DNA of 17,896 bases, from assembly GCA_902766655.1 (NCBI GenBank), contig CACXEL010000040.1, forward strand, positions 1 to 17,896, given 5' to 3'. Under the pieces are notes generated by a model. That model was not told the origin of the DNA and made no database searches. It saw nothing but the letters and a program-made list of their open reading frames with translations. Position numbers and translations under genes: made by a program. Origin of the DNA: an uncultured Lachnospiraceae bacterium (GTDB lineage: Bacteria; Bacillota; Clostridia; Lachnospirales; Lachnospiraceae). This document shows positions 259 through 17,333 of this stretch, in pieces (the stretch's first letter is position 1; the number at the start of each line of letters is the position of its first letter).

Positions 259-273
259 ACTAACGCAGTTAGT
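259..273. promoter_or_regulatory. Shared palindromic operator, copy 1 (UbiD operon)
   Basis: ACTAACGCAGTTAGT is a perfect palindrome around a 3-base centre. It is identical to the copy at 9309-9323 and lies on the predicted transcription start of the UbiD operon. Confidence 0.75.
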
Positions 274-321
274 TATAGTCAGCGGTTTTGCAAAAGCCAG
301 GAATCAGTAAAGGAGGCTGTC

Positions 322-1803
322 ATGAATCACCCTGTCAATGATCTCAGAAGCGCGCTGGATTATCTCCGGAGCATCCCCGGACAGCTCATCGAAACAGATG
401 TAGAAGCGGATCCTGCAGCCGAACTCTCCGGAGTGTACCGCTATGTAGGTGCCGGAGGAACGGTGAAGCGTCCGACCACTGTTAATGGTCCTGCCATGCT
501 CTTCAACAATATCAAAGGACATCCCGGCGCCAGGGTCGCCATCGGACTGATGGCAAGCCGTGAACGAGTGGCGAAACTGTTCGGATGCCGAAAAGAGGAG
601 CTCGGTCATCTGGTCCGGAGCTGTGCCGCAAATCCCGTCGATCCTGTTGTCATCAGTGGTCCTGCGCCGGTCCAGGAAGTAGTTCATCGCGCGGAGGATC
701 CCGGCTTTGACCTGTTCCGTCTGATTCCCGCGCCCACCAACACTCCGCTGGACGCAGGTCCCTACATCACTCTCGGTATGTGCTACGCCACACATCCCGA
801 CACCGGTCTCTCCGACGTAACGATCCACCGGATGTGCATTCAGTCGAAGAATACCCTCTCCATCTTTCTGCAGCCCGGGTCACGGCACATCGGTGCCATG
901 GCGGAACGGGCCACAGAGCTGGGAAAGTCGCTGCCCATTTCCATTTCCATCGGAGTGGATCCGGCTATCTCCGTCACCTCGTGCTTTGAACCGCCCACAA
1001 CGCCCCTCGGCTTCAATGAGCTCTCCATTGCGGGCGCTCTTCGGAAGAAAGCCGTGGAACTGGTCCCCTGCGTTTCCGTGAAAGAAAACGCCATCGCGAA
1101 CGCGGAATATGTGATCGAAGGCGAGATCCTTCCGGGCAGCAACAACACAGTCGAGGACCAGAACAGCCATACCGGTTATGCCATGCCGGAGTTTCCCGGC
1201 TACAACGGCGCTGCAAGCCATGTGTGCTGGCTCATCAAGGTAAAAGCAGTGACGCACCGGAAAGATCCCATCATGCAGACCTGCATCGGTCCCAGCGAGG
1301 AACATGTCAGCATGGCTGGTATCCCTACGGAAGCCTCCATCCTGAATCTGCTGGAAAAAGCCCTTCCCGGAAAGGTGAAGAACGTCTATGCCCACCGCTC
1401 CGGCGGCGGCAAATATATGGCGGTTCTCCAGTGCGTAAAATCCGTTCCCACAGACGAAGGAAAGCAGCGTCAGGCTGCGCTCCTTGCCTTCTCCGCCTTC
1501 CCGGAGCTCAAGCATGTGGTTCTGGTGGACGACGACGTGGACATCTTCGACTCCGACGATGTCCTCTGGGCTTTGAACACCCGCTTCCAGGGCGACCGGG
1601 ACATCATCACTATCCCCGGCGTCCGCTGCCACCCACTGGATCCAAGCGCCCGGCCGGAATACAGTGCTTCTATTCTGGACACCGGCATCTCCTGCAAGAC
1701 CATCTTCGATGCGACGGTACCCTTCAGCCTGAAGGACCGCTTCGTCCGTTCTCCCTTCCTTGAAGTGGATCCTGACAAGTGGATCCCCGGATTCGGAAAG
1801 TGA
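322..1803 (+). CDS. UbiD-family prenylated-FMN-dependent (de)carboxylase
   Basis: This 493-residue protein has the length and layout of the UbiD family. These are cytoplasmic enzymes that reversibly decarboxylate alpha,beta-unsaturated or aromatic acids using prenyl-FMN. The prFMN/metal-binding stretch is visible at about 164-190 (SDVTIHR, then RHIG), and R170 is the likely equivalent of the catalytic Arg. The metal-ligand region GFNELSIAGALR (230-241) and a Glu-rich catalytic stretch around 262-268 (AEYVIEGE) follow. The start is the ATG at 322, 6 bases after AAAGGAGG. The gene is first in an operon with its own cofactor genes, UbiX and an LpdD-like protein, 20 bases upstream of UbiX. It is controlled by a promoter with a perfect palindromic operator. 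It resembles hydroxyarylic-acid decarboxylase C subunits by operon layout, but the substrate could equally be an unsaturated di- or tricarboxylate given the neighbouring transporters and PrpD. Confidence 0.92.
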   Translation: MNHPVNDLRSALDYLRSIPGQLIETDVEADPAAELSGVYRYVGAGGTVKRPTTVNGPAMLFNNIKGHPGARVAIGLMASRERVAKLFGCRKEELGHLVRSCAANPVDPVVISGPAPVQEVVHRAEDPGFDLFRLIPAPTNTPLDAGPYITLGMCYATHPDTGLSDVTIHRMCIQSKNTLSIFLQPGSRHIGAMAERATELGKSLPISISIGVDPAISVTSCFEPPTTPLGFNELSIAGALRKKAVELVPCVSVKENAIANAEYVIEGEILPGSNNTVEDQNSHTGYAMPEFPGYNGAASHVCWLIKVKAVTHRKDPIMQTCIGPSEEHVSMAGIPTEASILNLLEKALPGKVKNVYAHRSGGGKYMAVLQCVKSVPTDEGKQRQAALLAFSAFPELKHVVLVDDDVDIFDSDDVLWALNTRFQGDRDIITIPGVRCHPLDPSARPEYSASILDTGISCKTIFDATVPFSLKDRFVRSPFLEVDPDKWIPGFGK

Positions 1804-1823
1804 ACAGATTACCGGAGGATACT

Positions 1824-2393
1824 ATGAAAAAACGGCTCATCATCGGCGCGACCGGCGCCAGCGGGCTCCCACTGACCATAGAATGCCTGAAGATCCTTAA
1901 GAAGGCGGAAGATGTCTCCGCCTGCCTGATCATGAGCGACAGTGCCTGGATCACGCTGAAGCAGGAAACAGACCTTTCCTCCGAAGAACTATTCTCCCTT
2001 GCCGACGAGGTCTATGATCCCCGCGATATCGGCGCAGGTCCTGCCAGCGGCACCTTTCGCACCGCGGGAATGCTGGTGGTTCCCTGCAGCATGAAGACTC
2101 TGGCCGGCATTCACTCCGGATACGCGGATACCCTTCTGCTCCGTGCGGCAGATGTCACCATAAAAGAGCAGCGCCCCCTGGTACTTGCTGTCCGGGAGAG
2201 CCCTCTTTCTCCCATCCACCTGAGGAACATGCAGGAACTCTCCATGATCCCGGGCGTACGCATCATCCCGCCGATGATGACCTGGTACACCCGGCCGAAG
2301 TCCGTGGAGGAGATGACACACCACATGGCCGCAAAACTTCTGGAGCCCTTTGGGATCGAATCGGAAAACTATCATCGCTGGCAGGGCATATGA
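1824..2393 (+). CDS. UbiX-type flavin prenyltransferase (prenyl-FMN synthase)
   Basis: This 189-residue protein matches the UbiX/Pad1 family, which transfers a dimethylallyl group to reduced FMN to make the cofactor used by UbiD enzymes. It has the N-terminal flavin-binding GATGASG (8-14), PCSMKTLAGI (87-96) with the family's Ser/Lys pair, and KEQRPLVLAVRESP (114-127), the family's phosphate/prenyl-binding arm. The length is normal for the family. An in-frame ATG exists at 1779 inside the end of UbiD, but ACCGGAGGATACT directly before the ATG at 1824 decides the start. The gene lies 20 bases after UbiD, so the two are translated from one message and the maker of the cofactor is made with its user. 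Confidence 0.93.
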   Translation: MKKRLIIGATGASGLPLTIECLKILKKAEDVSACLIMSDSAWITLKQETDLSSEELFSLADEVYDPRDIGAGPASGTFRTAGMLVVPCSMKTLAGIHSGYADTLLLRAADVTIKEQRPLVLAVRESPLSPIHLRNMQELSMIPGVRIIPPMMTWYTRPKSVEEMTHHMAAKLLEPFGIESENYHRWQGI

Positions 2394-2448
2394 ACTGCTG
2401 ATAATTCTGAATGCCCGCTTCTGTATGCCCCCGGAAAGGAGGCCCCCT

Positions 2449-2820
2449 TTGAAGACTTACTGCATCCCCCTCTCTTTCTCTTCGCTTCTGGTGGAGGCAG
2501 CCCCCATCGGCCAGGACCTGCTGCTCACTGTCCGCGGCGGGGACGCTCCCCACATCGGATGTGTCGTCCTTACGGAGCCCCGTCTGTCCCTGACGGGCAG
2601 CGGCTCCGTAAGCTGCACTTCCTCCGTGCTTTCCGTCACCGGCCACAAGGATGAATTTCTCTGCCGCACGCTTGCCGAAAAAGCCGCGGTGCAGTACAAC
2701 ACAAGAGTTGTATGCACCGGCGGCTTTCATATCGATTCTGTATTGCAGGCGCAGCTGGATGAGATCCTGGCTGCGGTGCGGGAATTCCGCTTCCCTGAAA
2801 AAGAACAGCTCTTCACGTGA
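2449..2820 (+). CDS. LpdD-like prenyl-flavin chaperone/decarboxylase accessory protein
   Basis: This small protein (123 residues) is third in the UbiD-UbiX operon. It contains GQDLLLTVRGG (21-31) followed by DAPHIGCVVL (32-41), the GG-x-PHIG signature of the D subunit of bacterial gallate/hydroxybenzoate decarboxylases (LpdD, BsdD/VdcD). These have been described as accessory proteins linked to prenyl-FMN enzymes. I place the start at TTG 2449 because AAAGGAGG (2436-2443) precedes it by 5 bases. The in-frame ATG at 2350 overlaps the UbiX end and has no ribosome site. The gap to UbiX is 55 bases. The gene ends 11 bases from the end of the oppositely oriented DAK2 gene. The LpdD assignment rests on motif and context and is likely but not certain. 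Confidence 0.8.
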   Translation: MKTYCIPLSFSSLLVEAAPIGQDLLLTVRGGDAPHIGCVVLTEPRLSLTGSGSVSCTSSVLSVTGHKDEFLCRTLAEKAAVQYNTRVVCTGGFHIDSVLQAQLDEILAAVREFRFPEKEQLFT

Positions 2821-2831
2821 CAAAGATATTC

Positions 2832-4088
2832 TTAACTGACTCTGCGGACCGCAAACCGGGTCATGTAGCCGGAAGACAGGACTCCGCAGGCTGCTGCTGC
2901 GATCATTTCTGCCGGATCCGCGGCGGAAGCTGCGCACCTTATCACGTTGCTCTCCTCCCGGATCCATATGCTTCCAGCATACTGCTTAAGTATTCCGGCC
3001 GCATGTTCCGCAAGATCCCGCTCCCTCACTCCCTTGAGGATCTCAAATTCAACACTGTAGATCGACTGCAGGTCTGCCTCCTCCATCTTTTTTTTGTCTT
3101 CTTTCGTTTTTTCCGAAAAACTGACTTTAAAATCAGCAGAATGACTTATCCCGTACAGTTTCTCCACCACTCCGGCGGAAAACGCAGCCCGGACGGCTCC
3201 TGCGGGATCGTCTGTGCTGAATTTCGCTTCGATCGTGTTTCTTTCCATAAAAACAGTCAGGCGATCCGCCGCGGGATCCAGTTTTTTCCTCATTTCCTCC
3301 AGAGATCCGCTGTCCGAAAAAGAAACATTCACGACGTAAGTTACAACCGGAAGCGACCCGTCTGTCCTCCGCACCTTACCTTTGTCGAACACATAAGGTT
3401 CTTCGACATCCATCTCTTCCGGCGCAGGTTCCGGTGTCATTTCCTTTCCCAGAAAAACGTCTGTCATGCCCTCCAGAAACGACACAAATCCCAGAGCGCC
3501 TGCATCGACCACGTCGTTTTCCCTTAAAATATCCATTTCATATTTCGTCTGGACAAGCGCCCGCCCGGCAGCCGCGAGGACAGTCTCCCACATCCGGAAC
3601 TCTGTATCTTCAGTATCGCTCCCTCCCTGTTTCAGATCTTCCAGAAACTTCTTTCCGGCCCTCACAGCCTTTTTCGCGACCGTCAGCATCGTGCCTTCCT
3701 CCGGCTGGAAAACAGCCCGGTAAGCGGCGTCAACGCCATCAGAAAGCGCGTTTATCAATTCTTTTGCAAAAACACGGTCCCTGAAAGGCACATCGGAGGA
3801 AATCCGCACCGCTGCCCCTCGCATCATGGCTGCAAAAATCGCACCGGAATTACCCCGGGATGCCCGCAGCATATACTTTGCAGTGTCCTCTATGACCTCG
3901 GCGGGAGTACAGTTCTCTTCCATCCGCAGAAGATGCTGTTTTGCCATCCCCAGGGTCAGGGTGAGATTCGCACCGGTGTCCCCGTCCGCCACCGGAAAAA
4001 GATTGATCCGATTCATTTCCCCGCTTCTTCCGGCGACCCGGTTCGCGCCGCTGATGAAGGCGTCCCTCAGCATTTTTCCCGTGACCAT
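2832..4088 (-). CDS. DAK2/DhaL-domain protein, FakA (YloV)-like, shortened
   Basis: The N-terminal half is a DhaL-type nucleotide-binding domain. NLFPVADGDTGAN (29-41) carries the Mg-ATP-binding Asp pair D35/D37, RGNSGAI follows near residue 93, and DAGALGF near 195. FakA proteins phosphorylate fatty acids held by a DegV-type FakB partner, and DhaK/L kinases act on dihydroxyacetone. No FakB/DegV or DhaK partner is visible here. At 418 residues it is shorter than the usual FakA length of about 550. The acidic stretch PEPAPEEMDVEEP near 216-230 looks like a linker to a divergent C-terminal half. The gene is co-transcribed behind PrpD with a 36-base gap. The ATG at 4088 is kept although the nearest GGAAGGAG is about 14 bases away, longer than usual, because no better in-frame start exists before an in-frame stop. 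The substrate is unknown. Confidence 0.75.
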   Translation of the reverse strand: MVTGKMLRDAFISGANRVAGRSGEMNRINLFPVADGDTGANLTLTLGMAKQHLLRMEENCTPAEVIEDTAKYMLRASRGNSGAIFAAMMRGAAVRISSDVPFRDRVFAKELINALSDGVDAAYRAVFQPEEGTMLTVAKKAVRAGKKFLEDLKQGGSDTEDTEFRMWETVLAAAGRALVQTKYEMDILRENDVVDAGALGFVSFLEGMTDVFLGKEMTPEPAPEEMDVEEPYVFDKGKVRRTDGSLPVVTYVVNVSFSDSGSLEEMRKKLDPAADRLTVFMERNTIEAKFSTDDPAGAVRAAFSAGVVEKLYGISHSADFKVSFSEKTKEDKKKMEEADLQSIYSVEFEILKGVRERDLAEHAAGILKQYAGSIWIREESNVIRCAASAADPAEMIAAAACGVLSSGYMTRFAVRRVS

Positions 4089-4124: not shown

Positions 4125-5489
4125 TTACCAGTTTAACAGAGGAAGAAAGGTATTGAGATCTGTCTCCTGCTCAAAAGAAGCGCAGCGGTCCATTACTTCC
4201 CGGATCTTTTCATCTGACAGAAGCCCTTTTGCCCCAGTGACAAATTTGTTTACCAGTTCATCAAAACCCACCGGGTTCTGCGGAGATCCCTTCAGGTCAT
4301 AGCACTCTTCTCCGTACTCCGTGCCGTCCTTCATGATGAGCTTTACCACAGCCCCTCTTCGCCTCGGGTACAGCGCGTCTACTTCCGGATCCATGGTAAC
4401 AGTCACTTTGCCGGAGACCTCCAGGTACTTCGGATCCGTATACATCTCCTCTGTCAGATGCCGTACCGCTACGCCGCGGTCGATGAGTGCCGCCGCCACG
4501 CCGTAGGCAATGCTGAACTTCGCGTCGCCCGGGTTTTTCGGCTCTTTGATTTTTCCTGTAAGGTCGTAAGCCACGTGATGGGTTCCGACTTCGACGCGTT
4601 CCACCTCTCTGTAATCGATGTCATGGGCCCGGGCTTCATTCAGCACCGCCTCAATGGCCGGCTGGGAATGACGGCAGGTCGGGTAGAACTTGGAATAAGT
4701 CTCCGTGATCTGGAACGGCCTTCCCAGATCTTTTCCCGCCTCGTCCGGGTCGATCTTTTTTGACATTGCCTGAAAGAGTCCCGTTTTTCCTTCAAAGACG
4801 GTCGCTGTTCCTTCAAGCCCTTCTCTCGCCACATACGCGCAGCTGATGCCGTTCATGGCGGCATTTCCCACCATGACACACTTGGACTGCTGTCCGGATA
4901 CCGTGGCTTCCATGAGCCCTGCGGCCTGAAGGCCGCTCATTCCCAGTCCTGCAGTCAGCTGCTCCGCAGAAAGCTTCATCAGCTTTCCGGCCACCGCCAT
5001 CGCGCCGATGGTATCACAGGTGGCAGATGGATGGAATCCATGATCGATGAGTTCAGGGGCCTGGGCGACCGCCAGACGGTACACAGTCTCATAGCCCAGA
5101 ACGATAGCTGTGAGTACTTCCCTTCCGCTGCTGCCGAGTTCTGCTCCCATTACCAGCGCCGTCGGGATCACCACGGCTCCCGCGTGGACTCCGGCGAACT
5201 TGTGGCCGTCATCCAGTTCGATCGCATGAGCGAATGTAGCGTCCAGCATGGCAGCCCGGGCTGCCGGGAAGCCCCACGGACAGTCCGGGCCAATGGGCTT
5301 GTGCGCGCCCGTTCCCAGAAAAGAGACCGCCCTTTCAAGCTGTTCCGCATAGGCCCATCCGGAACGGCCGGCAATCATGGCTCCGATGGTGTCCAGAAGC
5401 CGTTCCTTCGCTACCGAAATGATCTCCTGCGGGATATCCTCATAGTCCGTCTCGTAAATCAGATTTGCAAACTGTCTTGTAAGTTCCAT
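4125..5489 (-). CDS. MmgE/PrpD-family protein (dehydratase/isomerase/decarboxylase superfamily)
   Basis: This 454-residue protein has the usual family length. Members include 2-methylcitrate dehydratase PrpD, cis-aconitate decarboxylase and iminodisuccinate epimerase, so family membership points to a di- or tricarboxylate substrate. Visible hallmarks are LLDTIGAMIAG (31-41), AIELDDGHKF (89-98) with D93/D94/H96, H102 in VHAGAVVIPTAL, YSKFYPTCRHSQPAIEA in the middle and AKFSIAYGVAAAL late in the protein. The start is the ATG at 5489, preceded by TTGGAGGGGACT. A longer form starting at 5525 would begin within the promoter -10 box and is rejected. It is first in an operon with the DAK2 gene. Its promoter is nearly consensus and carries two overlapping operator copies. 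Which family reaction applies cannot be told from sequence alone. Confidence 0.9.
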   Translation of the reverse strand: MELTRQFANLIYETDYEDIPQEIISVAKERLLDTIGAMIAGRSGWAYAEQLERAVSFLGTGAHKPIGPDCPWGFPAARAAMLDATFAHAIELDDGHKFAGVHAGAVVIPTALVMGAELGSSGREVLTAIVLGYETVYRLAVAQAPELIDHGFHPSATCDTIGAMAVAGKLMKLSAEQLTAGLGMSGLQAAGLMEATVSGQQSKCVMVGNAAMNGISCAYVAREGLEGTATVFEGKTGLFQAMSKKIDPDEAGKDLGRPFQITETYSKFYPTCRHSQPAIEAVLNEARAHDIDYREVERVEVGTHHVAYDLTGKIKEPKNPGDAKFSIAYGVAAALIDRGVAVRHLTEEMYTDPKYLEVSGKVTVTMDPEVDALYPRRRGAVVKLIMKDGTEYGEECYDLKGSPQNPVGFDELVNKFVTGAKGLLSDEKIREVMDRCASFEQETDLNTFLPLLNW

Positions 5490-5504: not shown

Positions 5505-5519
5505 ACTAACACCGTTCAC
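5505..5519. promoter_or_regulatory. Shared operator, copy 2a (PrpD operon)
   Basis: ACTAACACCGTTCAC has one perfect and one degenerate half. It lies at and just after the predicted transcription start and overlaps copy 2b by two bases, forming a tandem. Confidence 0.55.
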
Positions 5520-5532
5520 TAACATTGTAAGT
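5518..5532. promoter_or_regulatory. Shared operator, copy 2b (PrpD operon)
   Basis: ACTAACATTGTAAGT has one mismatch in the right half. It covers the -10 box TACAAT (5529-5524) of the PrpD promoter. Confidence 0.6.
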
Positions 5533-5600: not shown

Positions 5601-6182
5601 TCACAGCCTGACAGTTCTGCCTTCCTTTCTGGCAGCGGCTTTTTTCGGCCGCACAGCAGCATAGCCCACAGATACGCTGCCGAAGATATCCTCGTCCTCT
5701 CTCAATCCCAGACGTCCGAAGATCTCCCGTACTGCCGGCACCTCCGTCAGCCAGTGAGGCTGGTTGGACCAGCAGGCGCCCAGTCCCAGTGCCTCCGCGG
5801 CGATCAGGATGTTCTCAAGCCCCACGGCGCAGTTCGCCATGCTGTTGGAGTGCTTCCTGGGTGCGACAGCGGAGATCAGGGTCGGAGCATGGAAAATGAA
5901 ATGATAGTTTTCCGTCATTGCCCGGCGGATTCCTTTTGCCATCATCTCTCCTTCCACGACAGGCCTTGACCGCAGTTCATCCCGGATCACAAGGTTCAGT
6001 TCCTCCAGCACTTCCGGATCCTGTATCACCAGAAACCTGCTGTTCTGGAGATTTCCTCCGGTAGGAGCGTACAGCGCACAGGTCAGAAGCGTTTCCAGTT
6101 CTTCTTCCGTGATCTGCTTCGGCTCATAGGCACGGATGCTCCGCCTTGACAGAATATCTTTCACAGTCTGATTCTCGATCAT
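5601..6182 (-). CDS. Nitroreductase-family FMN oxidoreductase
   Basis: This 193-residue protein shows the FMN-binding start SRRSIRAY (12-19) and APTGGNLQNSRFLVI (39-53), which binds FMN phosphate and shapes the active site. A late GLGACWSNQ stretch is the usual flavin-contact loop. Members reduce nitro groups, quinones, enones or flavins with NAD(P)H, and the physiological substrate here is unknown. The start is the ATG at 6182, with GGAGGGGAG about 9-16 bases upstream. An in-frame extension to 6275 runs through the terminator hairpin and is rejected. No operator copy or clear promoter is seen before it, so it may depend on read-through past the terminator at 6207-6260 from the selenoprotein gene. 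An FMN reductase feeding reduced FMN to UbiX is one possible role (inference). Confidence 0.85.
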   Translation of the reverse strand: MIENQTVKDILSRRSIRAYEPKQITEEELETLLTCALYAPTGGNLQNSRFLVIQDPEVLEELNLVIRDELRSRPVVEGEMMAKGIRRAMTENYHFIFHAPTLISAVAPRKHSNSMANCAVGLENILIAAEALGLGACWSNQPHWLTEVPAVREIFGRLGLREDEDIFGSVSVGYAAVRPKKAAARKEGRTVRL

Positions 6183-6276: not shown

Positions 6277-8046
6277 TTATTTTCTGTTCTTCAGCATCTC
6301 CTCCCAGTTTTCCGGGAGTTCGATCTTCTTTGTGGTAGGCCAGCCCATGAAACCGTTCTGAGCGCCGATGATCATGTGATCCCGGGCCGGGTCGCCGCTG
6401 ACCACCAGGATGACGTCGTCCGGAGACGCCAGCATCCGTACAAAGCGCTGATCTCCGTCATCCGTGTAATTGCCGTCCTTGTCATAGAACGCAAGGGCGC
6501 CGTCCTTCGTTACTTCGAATTTACCATATTCTTCCTTCGTGCCCAGGAATTCCGGCCAGTTGCCGGCATCCACACCGATCTTGAACCTCTCGGTGAGACG
6601 TCCTCCCAGATTCGACAGGCGGAAGCGCGCATGCTCGAACAGGTGCTGCTTCACGTCCTCCTTCGTAAAGCCCTCCCGGATCAGGGAATCCACAATGGTG
6701 GGTGTGAGCACGATAAGCGGCATGACGTGCTGTCCGCGGAAGAAGAACTGGATGAACATGTGGTTGTCCGCCATACGGAGTTCGATGCTGCGGAGAATAC
6801 CCGCCGCAGTGGGCCAGCCGACCTCGATGCCCTGCGTCCTTTCGGTGCATGTCATGATAGTGACAGTGCTGTCCTCTTCTCTGAAGCCCCGGTCCACACG
6901 GAACGGCTTCCAGCCGATCTGGTGTATGTACTCATCATTCTCGGCGAGAATGATACGGAAGTTGTCGCCAAAGCAGCCCTTGTCGGTCTTATGCGGTATG
7001 AATCCCGCAACATTGCGGAGATACATTCTCCAGAAACGGCCGATGCTGGTGTTTGCCTGAAAACCCGGACGCAGAGCGCCCTGGGTGCAGTTGAACTTCA
7101 GGTCTTCGACGATCTTTCCGCTGACTATGGTCATGACCTCCGTCGCGGGGGTGTGTCCCAGGTTTTCCTGGGCAAAATACGGATCGCACATCGCCTCGGT
7201 CAGCGCCAGGAGCACAGGCATATATTCCGGGCGGCAGCCGGACATGACGCCGTTTACAGCGACACTCCAGACTGTTGCCTTTGTATTGTTCGGTTTCAGG
7301 ATTCCGAGGACCTCCTCCGGATCCCGTTTTGTAAACTTCATGAACTCGTCAACGCGGTCCAAAGTCGGCGGCACGACCGGAAGTCCCTCGGACCACTCCT
7401 TTTTCAGGAAGTACTCCTGCACTTCGTCAAAAGTACCGGCAAAGACGATATCCCTCGGCTTCGGATCTTTTTTCTTCTTCGCGTCCTTCGGCTGTACGGT
7501 CAGGCCCTTGATCACCTGGTCAAGCATGCCTTCCACCGCATTCCGGTATACCTGTTCATTCGGTGTGGTATTGACGTGTCCCGGATGTGTGGCGTAGGGA
7601 AGGTTCGGGAAGCCCTCTCCGGCAGCAGTGAAGCTGCCCGCCGTCTTGAATCCGTCACAGCAAAGTGTCACTGTGGGGATCCCCAGTTTTTCGACCAGAA
7701 TACTTGCACGCGTCACGGCGGCGATACAGGACCCTCAGCAGCCCACCCCGCATATGACAGCATCGACGCCGAAATCCTTCAGCTTCTGCGGAAGCTCCGC
7801 CAGGACCTGCCGCTCATTCGCGCCGTGGATCTCGCCGAATTCTTTCCAGCTGATCAGCTTGATCCCCGGATATCTCTTCGGCAGCTCGGCTTCAAAGGCA
7901 TCAAACATGATGTCACCTTTAAAGACCCAGTCCCACAGCTCTGCCACGACTTTGCCTTCCAGCGTGTCGAGGCGTTTCGCCAGCTTCATGCCAACAGCAG
8001 TGCTGGGAGTGGATGGCCATACAACTTCAAAGTTTTCTCCACCCAT
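6277..8046 (-). CDS. UGSC-family selenoprotein (Sec encoded by in-frame TGA)
   Basis: The minus strand reads as one 589-residue protein if TGA at 7737-7735 is selenocysteine, residue 104. Around it the protein reads VDAVICGVGC-U-GSCIAAV, the C-U-G-S-C motif that names the UGSC (seleno)protein family. The frame is open on both sides, and the third paralog (15514-17247) has Cys at this exact position. The start is the ATG at 8046, with AAGGAGG 7 bases upstream; an upstream in-frame TTG at 8079 has no ribosome site. Two parts are visible: the UGSC domain (about 1-190, with AELWDWVFKGD and ISWKEFGEIHGA) and, after a Lys-rich linker (near 195-212), a domain of about 370 residues with PVVPPT and NGVMSGCRPEYMPVLLA. 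The UxxC arrangement resembles the redox motif of glycine-reductase GrdB, suggesting a thiol/selenol reductase. The true reaction is unknown. It has its own promoter with an operator. The adjacent reductase and selB fit a working Sec protein. Confidence 0.88.
7706..7722 (-). promoter_or_regulatory. Candidate bacterial SECIS hairpin
   Basis: Downstream of UGA the mRNA segment GCCGCCGUGACGCGUGC can fold into a 5-bp stem with one bulged U and a six-base loop CGUGAC. Its G-U falls 22-23 bases from the U of UGA. A bulged U and a G-U in the apical loop recall the E. coli fdhF element, though here the bulge is on the 3' side. It was judged by eye only. Confidence 0.3.
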
Positions 8047-8075
8047 GGCTCTTTCCTCCTTTTCTTTTTTCAATG

Positions 8076-8111
8076 GCAATGATAGCCGGTTAGCTATAGG
8101 GCTATCATTGC
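8076..8111 (-). promoter_or_regulatory. Long inverted repeat in the selenoprotein 5' leader
   Basis: A perfect 12-bp inverted repeat, GCAATGATAGCC (8076-8087) and GGCTATCATTGC (8100-8111), has a 12-base loop. It lies between the predicted start (about 8128) and the ribosome binding site. A competing pairing, GTTAGC (8089-8094) with GCTAAC (8110-8115), shares bases with it and with the operator. No T-tract follows, so it is not a typical terminator. It could be a leader regulator or a second protein site. Confidence 0.55.
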
Positions 8112-8124
8112 TAACTATGTTAGT
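8110..8124. promoter_or_regulatory. Shared operator, copy 3 (selenoprotein gene)
   Basis: GCTAACTATGTTAGT differs from the perfect palindrome only at the first base. It lies immediately downstream of the predicted start near 8128. Confidence 0.7.
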
Positions 8125-9282: not shown

Positions 9283-9297
9283 GCTAACATTGTTTGT
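9283..9297. promoter_or_regulatory. Shared operator, copy 4a (reductase gene)
   Basis: GCTAACATTGTTTGT lies over the predicted transcription start (about 9295) and downstream of copy 4b. Confidence 0.6.
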
Positions 9298-9301: not shown

Positions 9302-9330
9302 ATATTATACTAACGCAGTTAGTATGTCAA
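9302..9330 (-). promoter_or_regulatory. Sigma-A promoter of the reductase gene
   Basis: Minus-strand -35 TTGACA (9330-9325) is followed by a 17-bp spacer and TAATAT (9307-9302). An overlapping TATAAT would give a 15-bp spacer. Operator 4b fills the spacer. Confidence 0.75.
9309..9323. promoter_or_regulatory. Shared operator, copy 4b (reductase gene)
   Basis: ACTAACGCAGTTAGT is a perfect palindrome, extended to 19 bp by flanking AT/AT. It lies between the -35 and -10 boxes, where a bound protein would block RNA polymerase. Confidence 0.75.
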
Positions 9331-11003: not shown

Positions 11004-12671
11004 TCAGATGTCTATTCTCTGGGATACGGGATATCCCATAAAACCGTTCTGTGCGCAGATCAGGACATGATCCCTCCCCGGATCTCCACTGATGAGAAGC
11101 TGAAAGGCGTCCGGTCCGAAGACCATCTGCACCTTCCGGTCCAGATCTTTTGTTGTTCCGATCTGTTCCGGCCAGTTTCCCGCTTCGATCCCCTGATAAA
11201 AGCGGGTTATGGCGGCGGTCCCGAGCTGCCGGAGACTTACCCTGGCATGCTCATAAAAATGCTGCTTCACCATCTCTTTTGTATAGCCGGCATTCACCAG
11301 GATCTTCACCACTGCCGGAGGCAGGATCACGACCGGTCTGGTATCCATCCCGCGGAAGAAGAACTCAATGAAAAGATTGTTGTCCTCCATCCTTTTTTCT
11401 ATGTTCTCCAGCACCTTTTCAGCCGTGTCCGCTCCCACCTGGATCGCCTGCGTTTTTTCCGTGCAGGAGGTGATCGTGACAACGCTGTCCTCTCTGGAGA
11501 ATCCTCTGTCCTCCGCAAGAGTCGGCCATCCGACAGAAACAGCGTAATCCTCATTTTCCGCGACGACTACACGGAAGCTGTCGCCGAAACAGCTCTTGTC
11601 CGCTTTGTGGGGGACAAAGGTCGCCACATTGTGCAGATACAGTCTCCAGAAGCGGCCGATGCTGGTGTTTGCCATGAATCCCGGCCGCATGACCCCCTGG
11701 GTGTAATTGAAACCGAGCTTTTTGATCACCGGCCCGTTAACGATGATCATCTCCTCCATTCCCGGAGAATGTCCCAGATGTTCATGCTGGAATTCCGGCT
11801 TCAGCAGCGCTTTGACTATTGCAGTAAGTACAGGCATATATTCCGGTCTGCAGCCGGCCATCACGCCGTTCACCGCAATGTTCCAGGGTGTCACTTCCCG
11901 CTGGTCCGGCTGAATGATCCCGAGGATCCTGTCCTCCGGTTCATTCGAATATTTCAGGAATGCCTCGATCTTTTCGATGGTCGGCGGAACCAGCGGAAGT
12001 GCGTCGCTCCATTCATGTTCGTAGAAATACTCGTTCACCTCTTCAAAGCTGCCGCGGAAAATGATCTCTCTTTTCTCTGGCTCGCGCACGTTTTCCGCTG
12101 CGGGCGGCTGAACTGTCAGCGCCTTCACCACCTCGTCCGTCATGACTGTTCTTACAGTCTCCCTGACTTCTTCATCGGTGCACAGGAGCGGATGTCCGGG
12201 GAACACAGTAAAAGGCAGATTGGACATCCCGAGTCCCCCCGCGGCAGCTTTTCCATTGGACACAAAAGCTTCTGTCATAATAGAAGCCGTCGGCAGACCA
12301 AGCTTTTCCACCAGGACGCTGGTCCTGACATCTGCAGCAGCTCCGCTGGCGCCGCCCCCGACGCCCACAATGGCGCAGTCCGCGCCGCAGGCCTTCAGCT
12401 TTTCCGGCAATGCTTTTAAGACTTCCCTCTCATCAGCTCCGTGGATCTCCCCGAACTCCTTCCAGCTTATAAAGCGGATCCCCGGATACCGTCGGGATAG
12501 TTCCTCTTCAAAAGCCTGAAACATGACATCTCCCTTGAACGTCCATGACCAGAGCTCTGCGACTGTTTTACCTGTCAGGCTCATAAGCCTGCGAGCAGGA
12601 AGCTGTTCCTGGATGCTCTTCTTCCCTCCGGGCCAGACTACAGGATAAACCCCTTTTCTTTCTTCATCCAT
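11004..12671 (-). CDS. UGSC-family paralog lacking Sec and Cys in the motif
   Basis: This 555-residue protein aligns along its whole length with the selenoprotein at 6277-8046. Matching blocks include KGDVMFQAFEEEL, RYPGIRFISWKEFGEIHGA (61-79), NGVMAGCRPEYMPVL, ANTSIGRFWR and PHKADKSCFGD. At the active-site position, however, C-U-G-S-C is replaced by G106-G107-A108-S109-G110, so all three redox residues are gone. Two Cys (95 and 99) lie just before the motif. It is open throughout with normal codon use and a good ribosome site (AAAGGAG before the ATG at 12671), so it does not look like a decaying gene. A binding, scaffold or regulatory partner of the other UGSC proteins, or an enzyme working through the C-terminal domain only, are options. 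It is first in an operon with an SLC13 transporter. Confidence 0.85.
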   Translation of the reverse strand: MDEERKGVYPVVWPGGKKSIQEQLPARRLMSLTGKTVAELWSWTFKGDVMFQAFEEELSRRYPGIRFISWKEFGEIHGADEREVLKALPEKLKACGADCAIVGVGGGASGAAADVRTSVLVEKLGLPTASIMTEAFVSNGKAAAGGLGMSNLPFTVFPGHPLLCTDEEVRETVRTVMTDEVVKALTVQPPAAENVREPEKREIIFRGSFEEVNEYFYEHEWSDALPLVPPTIEKIEAFLKYSNEPEDRILGIIQPDQREVTPWNIAVNGVMAGCRPEYMPVLTAIVKALLKPEFQHEHLGHSPGMEEMIIVNGPVIKKLGFNYTQGVMRPGFMANTSIGRFWRLYLHNVATFVPHKADKSCFGDSFRVVVAENEDYAVSVGWPTLAEDRGFSREDSVVTITSCTEKTQAIQVGADTAEKVLENIEKRMEDNNLFIEFFFRGMDTRPVVILPPAVVKILVNAGYTKEMVKQHFYEHARVSLRQLGTAAITRFYQGIEAGNWPEQIGTTKDLDRKVQMVFGPDAFQLLISGDPGRDHVLICAQNGFMGYPVSQRIDI

Positions 12672-12686: not shown

Positions 12687-12701
12687 ACTAATTGCGTTAG
12701 T
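12687..12701. promoter_or_regulatory. Shared operator, copy 5 (UGSC2-transporter operon)
   Basis: ACTAATTGCGTTAGT has one mismatch in the left half. It sits just downstream of the predicted start (about 12705) and ends 15 bases before the ATG. Confidence 0.7.
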
Positions 12702-12711
12702 TTACGGTTTT

Positions 12712-12741: not shown

Positions 12742-12825
12742 TTGATTGTTGTTTTCCTATAGATGCTTATATAGTCATCTGTCTATCATTTTTCAAACAA
12801 CCATCAACAGACTGCCCCTGATTCC

Positions 12826-12854
12826 TTGACACGATCCGAAAAATCTACTATACT
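12826..12854 (+). promoter_or_regulatory. Sigma-A promoter of the LysR gene
   Basis: TTGACA (12826-12831), a 17-bp spacer and TATACT (12849-12854) are near consensus. The operator overlaps the -10 box and the start near 12861. Confidence 0.8.
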
Positions 12855-12866
12855 AACATTGTTAGC
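12852..12866. promoter_or_regulatory. Shared operator, copy 6 (LysR gene)
   Basis: ACTAACATTGTTAGC differs from the palindrome only in the last base. It covers the end of the -10 box and the start site of the LysR gene, which makes that gene a member of the same regulon. Confidence 0.72.
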
Positions 12867-12907: not shown

Positions 12908-13786
12908 ATGGATATTTCCGCATTAAAATATTTCATTGTCGTCGCCCAGACTGAACATATGAACCGGGCCGCCGCGCAGCTGCATATCACACAGCCGTCC
13001 CTCTCCACATGCATCCGCCGCCTTGAGGCGGATATCGGTTTCCGGCTCTTTGACCGGAACGGAAGAAACATTCAGCTGAACGAATACGGGAAGGTTTTTC
13101 TGAATGCCTGCCTCCAGATCGAAGACTCTTTAAACAGTGCCCTTTCCGAGATGGACCGCATCCGCACCAGCGCCGTCAGCTATTTAAGGCTTTGCTGTTC
13201 TAACTCTGCAACAAACTCCTTTATTATTGACCAGCTTCTTGCCAGGGGACTGCACCTTCAGGTCAGTGAAGTTTCCGAAAACTGGGAGCATATGCTGCTG
13301 GGCTCCAAGGCAGACCTGGTGATCACCATGGGACACTCTGTGACCGAAGGGATCTCCCATAGTATTCTGCATTTCCGCAGGCTTGTCCCCGTGGTACACA
13401 AGTCCCATCCTCTCGCCGCCCTGAAGAATATCAGTCTGAACGAGCTTCAACGGCATGCCTTCTGCTCAACAGCCTCATCGCACTCCATGATCAGCATCAT
13501 ACGGGCGCAATGTCCCGAACTGAATTTCCATCCCCGCATCGCTTTCCTCGGCAGAAATTCTTCCGACATGCTGAAAGCTATTCAGTCCGGTGTCTACGTT
13601 GGAATCATGGTCCAGCGGAATCTTCCTGCGGATCCGGATCTGGTGATGCTTGACGTGGATGATTTTCATGTCTTTCTTCCCATTTTTCTTTACTGGAGAA
13701 GTACGGACACCGACAACAGTGTACAGACAGCTGTGCGGCAGGAGATCCAGGATTACTATCAGGCCCTGGAAAAGGAATCTCCCTGA
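12908..13786 (+). CDS. LysR-family transcriptional regulator
   Basis: This 292-residue protein has a normal LysR layout. It has an N-terminal winged helix-turn-helix (about 1-60; MDISALKYFIVVAQTEHMNR, then AAAQLHITQPSLSTCIRRLE, GFRLFDRNGRNIQLNEYG), a linker helix and a periplasmic-binding-protein-like effector domain (about 90-292). The start is the ATG at 12908, with CAGGAGG five bases upstream; an earlier in-frame ATG at 12869 lies only about eight bases from the predicted start and lacks a ribosome site. It is divergent from the UGSC2-transporter operon, as LysR genes often are from their targets. It carries a copy of the shared operator on its own promoter. It may bind these operators, but their placement on start sites looks like repression, less typical of LysR. 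The effector is unknown. Confidence 0.92.
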   Translation: MDISALKYFIVVAQTEHMNRAAAQLHITQPSLSTCIRRLEADIGFRLFDRNGRNIQLNEYGKVFLNACLQIEDSLNSALSEMDRIRTSAVSYLRLCCSNSATNSFIIDQLLARGLHLQVSEVSENWEHMLLGSKADLVITMGHSVTEGISHSILHFRRLVPVVHKSHPLAALKNISLNELQRHAFCSTASSHSMISIIRAQCPELNFHPRIAFLGRNSSDMLKAIQSGVYVGIMVQRNLPADPDLVMLDVDDFHVFLPIFLYWRSTDTDNSVQTAVRQEIQDYYQALEKESP

Positions 13787-13821
13787 AGCGCTGCTTTCTC
13801 ATCCTTCCTTTTCGACATATA

Positions 13822-13858: not shown

Positions 13859-13917
13859 TTACTATTCTTCTGCTGCTACACTACGCCTGGTCTGGGATTA
13901 TGCGGTGCTTTTCGGGA

Positions 13918-15258
13918 TCAGACAGGCCAGATGCTGCAGAAACCCACCAGAGCCATGGCAGCTCCGATCAGCGCCATCACGATCCCGAGGATCAGCTGCC
14001 CCCTGATCAGATAATCGTTGAATTCTTCCGGAGCAAGCCCGATAAACTGAGATCCTGCTGTGGAAAAAGGTGAAATGGGCGTTGCCAGCGCACCGATCTG
14101 TGCGGCAGCATAAAGTGTTACCGGGTTCAGGCCGGTCGCCGATGAAAGAGCCGGCACCATGGGAAACATCAGCGGAAGCACTACGCCTGTTCCACTTGAA
14201 AACACGCTCAGGAATGCGGCAATCAGAAGGAATACCGGCGGGAGGAGGAACCTGGGGAAGGACGACCCTTGAAAGAATGCCACTACCAGATCCTCAAGTC
14301 CTGCTTCTTTCGCAAGTTCCATCAGGAACGCGACACCAGATACGATCATGACCGTGTTCATGGGAATTCTCTGCAGAACCTTTTTCGGATTTGCCAGCTT
14401 CATGGTCGATGCGATCATGGAGAAAATAATGAGGATCGCATGGGGTTTGCAGAGATTCACAAAGGTTCTGGCGAAAGAACCCTTTGGGAATTTGACCAGT
14501 GTATTCAGGATATTCGGTACTACCATCAGGAAGAAACAGGTAAAGATGAGCACAAGGGTCTTCTTTTGAATATCATTAAAGGGCTCCGGCTTTTTCTGCA
14601 GCGCCTCGATCTTTACTCCCTTTCCAAGCTCGCTGCCATCTTTCTTCTTCAGATGGAAATAGAAGTAGATCATGGCGACCTGAACGATCTTGCTGAGAAC
14701 AAAAAGCCCATAGGTGTGGAAGTATGTGGCAAATCCAAGCTCTTCCCCGGCACTTTCCTGAACAAGTCCATACAGAACGACACCGGTTCCGGTAAAAGGA
14801 TTCATGGTACCGCTGTTATAGCCGCAGTCTATGGCAAAGACAAGAAGCAGCGGATCCATTCCGATCTGCTGGCAGATCGCGTATCCGACAGGTGCCAGAA
14901 GGACGATGGTTCCCGGTCCTGCGCCGAGATAGCCCATGATCATGGCGATGACCGCAAAAACCGCAGGAACCATCACCACTTTATCCCGAAACAGATACAG
15001 CATCTTTGACCCCAGAAGATTCAATGTGCCGTTCTCCCGGGCAAACCCGTAAAACAGAGCTCCTCCGATCAGGAAAAAGACCCAGTTGTCCGGCCAGTAA
15101 CCATAGACGTTGGCAACGCTTTTTCCCATAAACAGGACGCCGATCAGGAAGGCTCCAGTCATGGCAGTGATACCGAGGTTTACACCTTTTGTGAATGAAA
15201 GCACGATCGCAATAGCCACTGCCAGAAAACACAGGAGTATTATGGTATTGTTGCTCAT
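13918..15258 (-). CDS. Organic-anion permease of the ion-transporter superfamily (MatC/SLC13-like)
   Basis: This 446-residue protein has about 11-12 hydrophobic segments and ion-transporter-type re-entrant motifs: GAGPGTIVLLAPVGYAI in the first half and SSGTGVVLPLMFPMVP in the second. The late ALATPISPFSTAG is also typical. The family includes dicarboxylate/malonate-type carriers (MatC) and citrate transporters. It is clearly different from the transporter at 9497-10942, so the window holds two permeases from different subfamilies. The start is the ATG at 15258, preceded by GGAGGG at 6 bases. A longer form starting at 15321 would begin inside the operator. It has its own promoter with an operator just downstream of the predicted start, and converges on LysR. 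Substrate unknown; a carboxylate is the best guess from family and context. Confidence 0.82.
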   Translation of the reverse strand: MSNNTIILLCFLAVAIAIVLSFTKGVNLGITAMTGAFLIGVLFMGKSVANVYGYWPDNWVFFLIGGALFYGFARENGTLNLLGSKMLYLFRDKVVMVPAVFAVIAMIMGYLGAGPGTIVLLAPVGYAICQQIGMDPLLLVFAIDCGYNSGTMNPFTGTGVVLYGLVQESAGEELGFATYFHTYGLFVLSKIVQVAMIYFYFHLKKKDGSELGKGVKIEALQKKPEPFNDIQKKTLVLIFTCFFLMVVPNILNTLVKFPKGSFARTFVNLCKPHAILIIFSMIASTMKLANPKKVLQRIPMNTVMIVSGVAFLMELAKEAGLEDLVVAFFQGSSFPRFLLPPVFLLIAAFLSVFSSGTGVVLPLMFPMVPALSSATGLNPVTLYAAAQIGALATPISPFSTAGSQFIGLAPEEFNDYLIRGQLILGIVMALIGAAMALVGFCSIWPV

Positions 15259-15313
15259 AAGATTCCCTCCGTTGATTCTTTGCGCAGGCGGCATATTCGC
15301 TTCCCGCCCATGC

Positions 15314-15328
15314 ACTAACACCGTTTGT
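15314..15328. promoter_or_regulatory. Shared operator, copy 7 (second permease)
   Basis: ACTAACACCGTTTGT has one mismatch in the right half and lies at about +2 to +16 of the predicted transcript. Confidence 0.65.
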
Positions 15329-15336
15329 TATTCTGA

Positions 15337-15365
15337 ATTATAAACTATCGCTGTTCGTCTTTCAA
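15337..15365 (-). promoter_or_regulatory. Sigma-A promoter of the second permease
   Basis: Minus-strand -35 TTGAAA (15365-15360), a 17-bp spacer and perfect -10 TATAAT (15342-15337). It is the same -35/-10 pair as the selenoprotein promoter. Confidence 0.82.
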
Positions 15366-15454
15366 TAAATACCCTGCATTTATTAATAGTTTTTTGTCAT
15401 CGGTTTCCTTTCTCTCCGGCAGACTGATAGTTCAGAAGCTATTAATACCAGCAC

Positions 15455-15503
15455 AAATAATCCCTGCAGAGGGTTTCAGCCAATCCATCTGCAGGGATTA
15501 TTT
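15455..15503 (-). terminator. Terminator after the third UGSC gene
   Basis: A perfect 16-bp inverted repeat (AAATAATCCCTGCAGA with TCTGCAGGGATTATTT) surrounds a 17-base loop, 11 bases past the stop at 15514. The A/T ends of the stem give a T-rich 3' end on the minus strand. Confidence 0.8.
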
Positions 15504-15513
15504 TCCGTTAATG

Positions 15514-17247
15514 TTATTTCTTTTTTGCCTCAACGAGTTTTTCTTCCCAGTTCGCCGGCAGCCGGACTTCGGCGCTGGTGAGTTTCGCCATGGCAAGATT
15601 TGACCGGAAGAACTGACTTCGGTTTCTCGTCAGGTCTCCGACTACGATCACAAGAATATTCATCGCCTTTCCGAACAGCGGCACCATCCTCTTCGGATCG
15701 TCCGATTCATGCCACTCCGGCCCGAGATTGCCCTTCTCCACCTCTTCCTTCAGACTGTAGGGATGCCAGTGATTGAAGCGGGATGCATTCAGCTCGAAAT
15801 ACTCCGCCGTTACCTTTGTGTGCTCCAGAATGTATTTCGCGATAGTCTCCTTTGTATAGCCAGCGTCCGCAAGGCGCTTCGCCACCACCGGACTCAGGAA
15901 AAGCACATGATTCTCATGGTAGTCGCGCATGGTCTGATAGGGCTCGATCATTCTGGCGGCCCAGTCCACCATATAGTCAAGATGCTGCTCCGCGGTCGCT
16001 CCATTTGTCTGCATCGGATCACTGGCAATACGACCGGAGACGATGGACACCACATTGGATCCCTTCGGGAAACCCTGCAGCTCCGCGACTGTCTTGAATC
16101 CGAGTTCATCACAGACTTCGTCATTCTCCGGAATGACAGGACGGAACATCTGTCCGTGGGAAGCCATATCGGTGGATCCAAGCTGGAACCCGGCGATGTT
16201 TTTCAGCATCAGGTGGAAAGCGCGGCTCAGTGTCACGTTCGGCAGTGTATCCGCCCTCTGGTGTCCGATCTTGTAATTGAATTCCAGCTCATTGCGGATC
16301 GGTCCGTTCAGCATGATCATCGGCTCCCAGCCGGGAGTCGCGCCATAGTCCTTGATGGAAAACTCCGGTTTCACCATAATATCTGCCATTGCAAGAAGGA
16401 CAGGCATATACTCCGGACGGCAGCCAGCCATAACGCCGTTCACTGCAGCTTTCCAGACTGTGCAGACATTCTTGGAAGGCTCGACGATGCCGATCTCTTC
16501 CTCAGGATCCCTGTCTGTATACTTTAAGAACTCCTCGACCCGTTCCACAGTCGGCGGCACCACAGGCAGACCATCCGCCCATTTTCTGTCATAAAAGAAC
16601 TTCTGGACTTCTTCCCACGTGCCTTCGAATACGGTTTCCCTGGGATCCGGTCCTTTCTTTTTCATTTTCTTCACGGTGCTCTTCACGGGCTTTGTCAGCG
16701 CATCGATAATGCGGGGCATCAGGACCTCATGAATGTTCTCCCGCACCTTTTCCATGGAATCCATCGCGATGGGATTCGGGTACTCGATCATGCGGGCGTC
16801 CGGGAAACCGGCGCCCTTGGCGTTGGCTTTCGCCATGGTCGGGAATCCCTTACAGAGAATGCCGACTGCCGGGATACCGCAGTTTTCTACCAGGACCACG
16901 CCTCTGGCGACCGCCGGGGAGCAGGTGCCGCAGCAGCCGTTTCCGACGATAACTGCATCCACCTTCTCTTCCTTCAGCATGTCCGGAATGGCTTTCATGA
17001 CCGCAGCGGCCTTTTCCGGATCCGGATTATGGAAGTTTCCGAAATGCTGGTAAGGGATGATCTTAATATCGGGATAGCGCGCTTTCAGTTCCTCCTCAAT
17101 GACCGGGAATGTATCGTCGCCGCGGAAGGACCAGTTCCAGAGCTCCGCTACTGTTTTTCCGTTCAGATCCGGAAGAGAAGGCGCGACATCTTTATACTTT
17201 GAAGCAGGTGTTCCTACAGGATAGACAACTTTGAATATCTCACTCAC
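15514..17247 (-). CDS. UGSC-family paralog with Cys in place of Sec
   Basis: This 577-residue protein has the same two-part layout as the selenoprotein. The UGSC domain includes AELWNWSFRGD (35-45) and the motif C105-C106-G107-T108-C109, in which Cys106 stands exactly where the selenoprotein has Sec. After a Lys-rich linker (KKMKKKGPDPRE) comes the shared C-terminal domain with PVVPPT, NGVMAGCRPEYMPVLLA and a late HWHPYSLKEE stretch. The C-terminal half diverges more from UGSC1 and UGSC2 than those two do from each other. The start is GTG at 17247, with AAAGGAG 9 bases before it. It probably performs a related thiol reaction on a different substrate, or works under low selenium. It is monocistronic between its promoter (17305-17333) and the terminator at 15455-15503, and selB ends 122 bases upstream. 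Confidence 0.87.
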   Translation of the reverse strand: MSEIFKVVYPVGTPASKYKDVAPSLPDLNGKTVAELWNWSFRGDDTFPVIEEELKARYPDIKIIPYQHFGNFHNPDPEKAAAVMKAIPDMLKEEKVDAVIVGNGCCGTCSPAVARGVVLVENCGIPAVGILCKGFPTMAKANAKGAGFPDARMIEYPNPIAMDSMEKVRENIHEVLMPRIIDALTKPVKSTVKKMKKKGPDPRETVFEGTWEEVQKFFYDRKWADGLPVVPPTVERVEEFLKYTDRDPEEEIGIVEPSKNVCTVWKAAVNGVMAGCRPEYMPVLLAMADIMVKPEFSIKDYGATPGWEPMIMLNGPIRNELEFNYKIGHQRADTLPNVTLSRAFHLMLKNIAGFQLGSTDMASHGQMFRPVIPENDEVCDELGFKTVAELQGFPKGSNVVSIVSGRIASDPMQTNGATAEQHLDYMVDWAARMIEPYQTMRDYHENHVLFLSPVVAKRLADAGYTKETIAKYILEHTKVTAEYFELNASRFNHWHPYSLKEEVEKGNLGPEWHESDDPKRMVPLFGKAMNILVIVVGDLTRNRSQFFRSNLAMAKLTSAEVRLPANWEEKLVEAKKK

Positions 17248-17304
17248 GGTTTATTTCTCCTTTCCGGGAACCGTCATAAAGAACAGCGGGCTTTATCTGT
17301 TATC

Positions 17305-17333
17305 AGTTTACTAACACTGATAGTTTTTGTCAA
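17305..17333 (-). promoter_or_regulatory. Sigma-A promoter of the third UGSC gene
   Basis: Minus-strand -35 TTGACA (17333-17328), a 17-bp spacer and TAAACT (17310-17305). A second palindrome, TATCAGT-N8-ACTGATA (17301-17322), overlaps it and the operator. Confidence 0.75.
17310..17324. promoter_or_regulatory. Shared operator, copy 8 (third UGSC gene)
   Basis: ACTAACACTGATAGT has one mismatch in the right half and fills most of the spacer between the -35 and -10 boxes. Confidence 0.62.

Follow-up and report, generated by a model that had tools for sequence, protein, structure and literature searches.

Why genes for a UbiD-type decarboxylase, an MmgE/PrpD family protein, a selenoprotein, a reductase and acid carriers share one palindrome in their promoters, and which regulator reads it, is the question raised by a 17,896-nucleotide stretch of DNA from an uncultured Lachnospiraceae bacterium (GenBank assembly GCA_902766655.1, contig CACXEL010000040.1; the whole stretch is called the window below). 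The palindrome, RCTAAC-N3-GTTAGY, is crowded into the promoters of this cluster and, in other genomes, lies in front of genes for one group of TetR-family proteins. A member of this group is encoded in the same bin, on contig C45, and repression by this protein at the operators of the window is the reading favoured here, with a probability of about 0.85. The bin (G000) comprises 2,857,589 bases in 484 contigs and is estimated as 76% complete with 4% contamination; the window is its contig C40.

Operator sites in the promoters of the window

A preliminary description of this DNA had reported ten copies of the palindrome. When mismatches to RCTAAC-N3-GTTAGY are counted, a copy is present at all ten positions, but the consensus is exact for only four of them (259, 8110, 9309 and 12852), five carrying one mismatch (5518, 9283, 12687, 15314 and 17310) and one carrying two (5505). 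An eleventh copy with two mismatches, absent from the earlier list, lies at 15344 and pairs with the one at 15314. A weight matrix made from 28 distinct operators of TetR homologues of other species, none of them from the bin, gives exactly these 11 sites as the top 11 places of the window (20.3 to 11.9 bits), the next place scoring 6.7.

Start codons were placed by ribosome-binding sites, and transcription starts were predicted as the -10 hexamer plus 7 bases. Each of the eight promoters recognised in this way has at least one putative TetR operator, as had been claimed. The promoter of the ubiD-ubiX-PF21758 operon carries the site at 259..273 (centre at about +4; 19.0 bits). At the mmgE/prpD promoter, one site is located downstream (5505..5519; about +5; 11.9 bits) and another over the -10 element (5518..5532; about -8; 15.2 bits). 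The UGSC selenoprotein (UGSC-Sec) promoter has its copy at 8110..8124 (about +12; 14.5 bits). In the same way, the thioredoxin-reductase-like gene is preceded by a site at 9283..9297 (about +5; 15.2 bits) and, 26 bp from it, by one in the -35/-10 spacer at 9309..9323 (about -21; 19.0 bits). The operon of the second UGSC paralogue (UGSC-2) and the DASS transporter has a site at 12687..12701 (about +11; 14.5 bits), and a further one covers the -10 element of the lysR promoter at 12852..12866 (about -2; 20.3 bits). The MatC/CitMHS carrier promoter contains the sites at 15314..15328 (about +9; 19.7 bits) and, 30 bp away in the -35/-10 spacer, at 15344..15358 (about -21; 15.2 bits). Finally, the site at 17310..17324, in the -35/-10 spacer of the promoter of the third paralogue (UGSC-3; about -19; 19.7 bits), is identical to one found at position 1348 of contig C338.

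The earlier placement of the sites in promoter regions holds for all 11 copies: they lie in non-coding DNA, which represents 10.75% of the window, with three centres in the -35/-10 spacer (-19 to -21) and eight from -8 to +12. In 8 of 8 promoters the centres, from -21 to +12 of the predicted starts, are thus compatible with repression, and this placement suggests that the operators serve repression. Several sites are just downstream of a predicted transcription start, where the palindrome could instead work as RNA, folding into a small hairpin close to the ribosome-binding site. However, the copies at 9309, 15344 and 17310 are in the -35/-10 spacer and would not be transcribed from those promoters, and no Rfam match was found in the window at gathering scores; the chance of such a role is close to nil.

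Rarity of the motif

The four exact sites of the bin are all within the window, as are 9 of its 15 sites at up to one mismatch and 11 of its 44 at up to two. The genome scan and frequency check proposed in the preliminary description therefore find that the motif is not equally frequent elsewhere. When one mismatch is allowed, between 0 and 4 sites were counted in each of the 41 other genus members (34 in total, one exact) and between 0 and 11 in each of 15 further genomes, with the maximum in an Acetobacterium, so that isolated one-mismatch matches carry little weight. The exceptional feature is the crowding of sites into 17.9 kb. Places of at least 10 bits occur 0.11 times per 17.9 kb in the flanks of the TetR relatives described below and 0.70 times in sampled bin contigs, a figure biased upwards because this sample has contigs fetched for two-mismatch matches and contains one stretch twice.

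Three one-mismatch sites outside the window were attributed to chance after inspection by eye. The first, C134:73, lies past the 3' end of an integrase-like gene; at the second, C232:1058, no promoter was seen; the third, C314:2613, overlaps a different palindrome, CGATGATAGCTATCATCG, ahead of a FeoB-like gene, which explains the match there. Moreover, GCGAACNNNGTTCGC was seen twice, 88 bp apart, at C77:6464 and 6552, near amino-acid-kinase-like and dehydrogenase-like frames (by eye); this pair is perhaps the site of another regulator.

A TetR-family protein as the probable reader of the palindrome

Ten TetR_N matches were found in the bin, and the protein encoded at C45:5899-6519 (minus strand, 207 aa), outside the window, is the one with operator copies on both sides. 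Its two domains are over their cut-offs, with 36.9 bits for PF00440 (cut-off 24) and 52.5 bits for PF13305 (cut-off 26.8). The stronger of its neighbouring sites, C45:5765 and 5790, form a pair spaced by 25 bp and belong to the promoter of the CoA-transferase operon that comes next.

A scan of contigs for relatives of the C45 protein yielded 424, of which the best 80 were kept, five being the same loci as in an earlier family search. One of the 80, L076, with 97 bases upstream and no site, was set aside, and 79 homologues with 200 bases upstream were counted. Within these 200 bp, RCTAAY-N3-RTTAGY was found at up to one mismatch for 75 of the 79 homologues (71 exact), and the stricter RCTAAC-N3-GTTAGY was exact for 40. 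When homologues were clustered at 70% identity, 18 of 20 clusters had a site. The background in the flanks amounted to 5 sites in 979,073 bases, or 6 if the site of L081 is counted. The four homologues lacking an upstream site are L064, L081 (a run of N, with its site at about -209), L123 and L134 (match beginning within the protein).

The arrangement of the copies is also alike. Among relatives, 36 of the 48 spacings measured between successive operators amount to 24 or 25 bp, in agreement with 9283/9309 and with the C45 pair. In the 15 further genomes, 9 of 10 exact sites represent the TetR gene's own promoter, matched by sequence. Of 11 relatives judged by eye, 7 have a gene resembling a MATE transporter next to that of TetR, and a relative of the C338 MATE proteins was detected by tblastn within 2.5 kb at 12 of the 80 loci. 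Across Clostridia, the operator goes with the TetR gene and not with this pathway.

The protein itself offers a second line of evidence. The half-site differs from that of tetO only at positions +-3. When the C45 protein is aligned on the LYNH motif and numbered as TetR, Arg28 is kept and Ala38 stands in place of Gln. A table in PMC2723105 is consistent with this numbering. In PMC7102968, Arg28 and Gln38 of TetR are described as the sole side chains with direct base hydrogen bonds, to G+2 and A+3. Among the relatives with Arg28 and Ala38, 116 of 120 half-sites have AC at -3/-2, as in CTAAC, while those with Arg28 and Thr38 are mixed (24 AC, 30 AT). C at -2 is seen in 0 of 14 half-sites with Asn28 and 0 of 8 with Leu28, and Gln28 with Lys38, found at one locus, goes mostly with CTACT (3 of 4 half-sites). 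This pattern agrees with the TetR structure, an agreement that is not phylogenetically independent because the Arg28/Ala38 class with sites comprises three clusters at 70% identity. The Gln28/Lys38 relative (L041 and L083, genome G176) has a variant tandem operator, CTACT-N3-AGTAG, with one half-site changed in one copy, and is perhaps a natural change of specificity. The C45 protein, and not the LysR protein of the window, is probably the reader of the palindrome.

Regulon beyond the window and a second genome

The preliminary description had seen a single regulon in this cluster. It extends beyond the window, as operators were also accepted on three other contigs: C45 (5765/5790 and, in the TetR gene's own promoter, 6586), C338 and C139. 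The site C338:1348 is placed between lactonase and carboxylesterase genes, ahead of a TATAAT, and C139:5349 precedes the gene of an extracellular solute-binding protein (PF00496) and ABC genes.

The source of these contigs matters for this result. C40, C45, C139 and C338 have a GC content of 0.537-0.555, while fifteen other bin contigs range from 0.528 to 0.611 with a median of 0.585, and their tetranucleotide correlation is 0.62-0.76 among themselves versus 0.30-0.66 with these fifteen. They might therefore be mis-binned, or not all derive from one organism, in which case the C45 TetR protein may not act on the window; in addition, UGSC-3 homologues at E<=1e-20 are present in 1 of 42 genomes of the genus, G000 alone. 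On the other side, the four contigs are most similar to one another, with slightly overlapping ranges, and relatives of genes from all four lie on two contigs of a second genome, G928. They thus probably have one source, even if it is not that of the rest of the bin, and this shared source was perhaps acquired or mis-binned. Mis-binning as a group would alter the host and not the regulon. Overall, a wrong binning or mixed origin of the four contigs seems improbable.

G928 belongs to another family of the same phylum and is the sole genome with orthologues close enough for a test of the operator. Its contigs C272 and C194 hold relatives of UGSC-3 (71% identical), of the C45 MaoC-like protein (73%), of the thioredoxin-reductase-like protein (62%) and of LysR (51%). 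They also contain two C139-like ABC sets (ATPases 47-52%, permeases 33-36%), a C338-like esterase (42%), MATE protein (35%) and lactonase (33%), a distant MmgE/PrpD protein (24%), a TGA-containing UGSC gene and a further UGSC gene. At E<=1e-8, the two contigs gave no relative of UbiD, UbiX, the CoA-transferases or either carrier of the window; UGSC-2, UGSC-Sec and the PF21758 protein of the window fell outside this comparison, their frames having been displaced by longer antisense ones.

Many of the genes that share the operator are thus also neighbours in G928, where their relatives are interleaved on two contigs, and the surroundings of the TetR homologue L064 (below) fit in with this. Such neighbourhood supports one pathway. 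Together with sites far above chance, it sustains the earlier idea of one regulon for one pathway. What this pathway does can be proposed only tentatively from the protein families: at somewhat less than even odds, it degrades an organic acid, free or ester-linked and perhaps hydroxyaryl, by a route that includes a selenol/thiol redox step.

Conservation of the motif upstream of orthologues, which the earlier account had expected, fails in G928, the one genome where it could be applied. Only two places reach at least 7 bits, one of 8.4 inside the UGSC gene C272:6259-7962 and one of 9.3 at C194:12225. The latter, between an enoyl-CoA-hydratase-like and another LysR-like gene, is the only non-coding candidate and may be a degenerate operator. 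A search of 19 G928 upstream regions for a shared palindrome with 6-base arms found no perfect one recurring between regions.

The LysR protein and a second motif

The LysR-type regulator of the window (12908..13786, plus strand; start by ribosome-binding site) had been named first for a gel shift. It could bind the palindrome and control the regulon together with its own gene: no other transcription regulator was recognised in the window, and the palindrome lies in its own promoter, as LysR autoregulation would have it. However, other genomes have the palindrome in company with TetR genes, and among 299 family genomes no LysR homologue was found outside G000 at E<=1e-35 (at most 8 candidates scored per genome), whereas G076, G273 and G253 have both TetR and motif. 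In G928, the 51% identical LysR has a nearly identical helix-turn-helix, yet its contigs hold no clear palindrome. LysR proteins usually anchor near -65, where no palindrome site is located, whereas another motif, TGATAG-N8-CTATCA, sits there and is common to G928. The LysR recognition site is described in PMC8407307 as an imperfect dyad with T-N11-A, while in RCTAAC-N3-GTTAGY the bases at this symmetrical spacing are C and G instead of T and A. LysR is thus a very unlikely reader of the palindrome, for which the TetR protein encoded on C45 is a far better match.

The second motif is exact in both UGSC-3 promoters, with centres at -64.5 in the window (17353..17372) and -63.5 in G928, and the lysR promoter of G928 has a one-mismatch copy at -58.5; a placement near -65 of predicted starts is thus conserved along with the LysR gene. 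A third G928 copy, with two mismatches, is inside a frame (C272:16949). In the window, one copy with one mismatch (15425..15444; centre -104.5) is upstream of the MatC promoter, and one with two mismatches (12769..12788) lies between lysR and UGSC-2, with centres at -82.5 and -73.5. In total, six copies at up to two mismatches were counted against 0.41 expected, a number reached in 0 of 200 shuffles; beyond the three upstream of promoters, one is coding (6855) and two overlap each other in the UGSC-Sec leader (8080 and 8088). The background in the other fetched loci, 48 in 1.39 Mb, is an upper bound because this set includes some window stretches. The symmetrical T and A of the second motif are 12 bases apart, so that it does not have T-N11-A either. 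It nevertheless appears to be a better candidate for the LysR box than the palindrome, and action of LysR at this motif is somewhat favoured.

Proposed mechanism and evidence against it

In the mechanism proposed, the C45 TetR protein would bind the palindrome as a dimer. Free of effector, it would occupy the -35/-10 spacer or the -10/+1 region and block RNA polymerase at the eight window promoters. The same repressor would block the CoA-transferase operon and, through a weak site, its own gene on C45, as well as the esterase/lactonase promoter on C338 and the peptide-ABC-transporter promoter on C139. A small molecule, probably the substrate or an acid/CoA intermediate, would release it. The lysR gene of the window would be one of its targets, and LysR would most likely be a second, pathway-specific activator working through TGATAG-N8-CTATCA at about -64. 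Under this control, an organic acid, perhaps a hydroxyaryl one, might be taken up, released by ester cleavage, activated with CoA and decarboxylated, with a thiol/selenol redox step besides.

Several observations weigh against repression by the C45 protein. The operator in its own promoter, C45:6586, located in the -35/-10 spacer, is a weak one of 4.8 bits with 2 mismatches. Of the two peptide patterns used in the scan, one spans the recognition helix, and the set of 80 is therefore enriched for similar DNA-binding domains. The closest homologue, L064 (47%), has the same recognition residues and no site upstream, and besides it the Arg28/Ala38 class has only its three clusters with sites. In the family search, seven non-self homologues gave three with sites at up to one mismatch, one with a variant palindrome and three with none, one of these three (L045) having just 100 bases upstream. 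Furthermore, 47.7 kb of G928 are devoid of any operator place of at least 10 bits. Finally, the completeness and contamination of the bin, and the composition of the four operator contigs, which differ from most of those sampled, have to be counted here.

The UGSC family and the other genes of the window

UGSC selenoproteins are numerous in metagenomes and functionally uncharacterised, according to PMC2398784 and PMC13188914. The UGSC proteins of the window match PF24696 with 91.7-118.7 bits (cut-off 25) and NF041046 with 45-68 bits, under its cut-off of 125. The selenoprotein gene (6277..8046, minus strand) has an in-frame TGA in a GC-U-GSC context; UGSC-2 (11004..12671, minus strand) aligns with neither Cys nor Sec at the UGSC motif; and UGSC-3 (15514..17247, minus strand), whose G928 counterpart is C272:18008-19723, is a Cys form (GC-C-GTC). 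This trio points to a redox-active selenoprotein accompanied by a Cys form and by a form that lacks the redox residue. A test for a SECIS stem after the UGA covered 51 bases, whose fold is less stable than that of most shuffled versions (z +1.97). Structure prediction from 3 UGSC sequences reached a mean pLDDT of 60 with no PDB match at E<=0.001, and was not used.

Between operator and ribosome-binding site, the UGSC-Sec leader (8050-8110, minus strand) contains a strong hairpin of 11 bp (-14.6 kcal/mol, z -3.0), which overlaps the two weak copies of the second motif. At the contig end, 17370-17894 encodes the C-terminal part of SelB (SelB-wing_3), adjoining the selenoprotein cluster.

The family is sparsely distributed. 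PF24696 was found in 4 of 299 family genomes, G000 among them, and UGSC-3 homologues, G000 counted, in 1 of 42 genomes at genus level (E<=1e-20, as above), 2 of 391 of the class (E<=1e-40) and 16 of 398 of the phylum (E<=1e-30). Plasmids gave 13 records at E<=1e-20, with 26.6-33.3% identity among the ten listed. At L064, the TetR gene adjoins a C139-like ABC operon and a 63-residue C-terminal remnant of UGSC-3 (68% identical); this remnant (7514-7702) lies on the opposite strand, between the TetR homologue and an aminotransferase-like gene.

The first operon of the window, on the plus strand, starts with the decarboxylase gene (322..1803). Its nearest named family is VdcC, subunit C of hydroxyarylic acid decarboxylases (NF041204), with 440.3 bits under a cut-off of 650; at most, the protein would act like a UbiD-type decarboxylase. 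It is followed by a UbiX-type flavin prenyltransferase (1824..2393), over the cut-offs of PRK06029 and ubiX_pad, and by the PF21758 protein (2350..2820), for which the first in-frame start codon was used and the true start may be further downstream.

On the minus strand, the gene of the MmgE/PrpD family protein (4125..5489; domain match, start by ribosome-binding site) has a DAK2-domain gene (2832..4088) 36 bp downstream, which probably belongs to its operon. The preliminary description had set a HAD and a nitroreductase gene apart as lacking the motif. This stands for the nitroreductase-family gene (5601..6182, minus strand), which has no operator and sits behind a strong terminator-like hairpin (6260-6223), so that its membership of the regulon is doubtful; no HAD gene was found, the DAK2-domain gene possibly being the one so called. 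The remaining minus-strand genes encode the thioredoxin-disulfide-reductase-like protein (8315..9238; 320 bits versus a cut-off of 343), the DASS-type carrier (9497..10942; PF00939) and the MatC/CitMHS-type carrier (13918..15258; start by ribosome-binding site).

Comparison with known systems and meaning

The system has much in common with TetR/tetO: a 15-bp palindrome of equal spacing, a half-site equal except at +-3, Arg28 and tandem operators in the core promoter. It differs in Ala38 instead of Gln, in the C-terminal PF13305 domain and in its many promoters as opposed to the one divergent pair of tetO; moreover, no tetracycline-resistance gene was recognised by eye among the C45 frames. With AmtR of Corynebacterium glutamicum it shares a TetR-type protein, a metabolic regulon of many operons and a CTAT-type palindrome, whereas, according to PMC2723105, AmtR has half-sites one base further apart and is not autoregulated.

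The gene order of the first operon, with UbiD-like, UbiX-like and PF21758 genes, is that of hydroxyarylic acid (vanillate/gallate-type) decarboxylase operons, although its UbiD protein remains far below the VdcC cut-off; to our knowledge, such operons do not include the UGSC, MmgE/PrpD and CoA-transferase genes that surround it here. A further likeness is with local TetR genes of Clostridia, often followed by a MATE-like gene, which have the same operator, the same tandem spacing and a similar recognition helix. However, their sites are mostly in their own promoters, in contrast to about a dozen promoters in G000. From the sequences compared, there seems to be an even chance that a self-controlling TetR switch, which elsewhere in gut Clostridia seems for the most part to control itself and often an efflux-type neighbour, has here become the master repressor in a catabolic regulon whose promoters, about a dozen in number, are distributed over four contigs, and that an older LysR activator system, which is conserved, lies beneath it. 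Six variants of the operator, searched as exact strings, had no match in 5.39 million open papers, which does not prove that the operator is unpublished.

The motif and the TetR group in the 80 loci form a natural series relating residues 28 and 38 to the operator bases at +-2 and +-3. The shared operator, together with a second genome that has much of the gene set, provides a testable list of partners of UGSC proteins in a pathway, and the inducer of the regulator would reveal the substrate of this pathway. If the reading is true, the uncharacterised UGSC family would gain a regulated metabolic context, made of esterases, CoA-transferases, a UbiD-type decarboxylase, an MmgE/PrpD protein, a thioredoxin-reductase-like protein and acid carriers.

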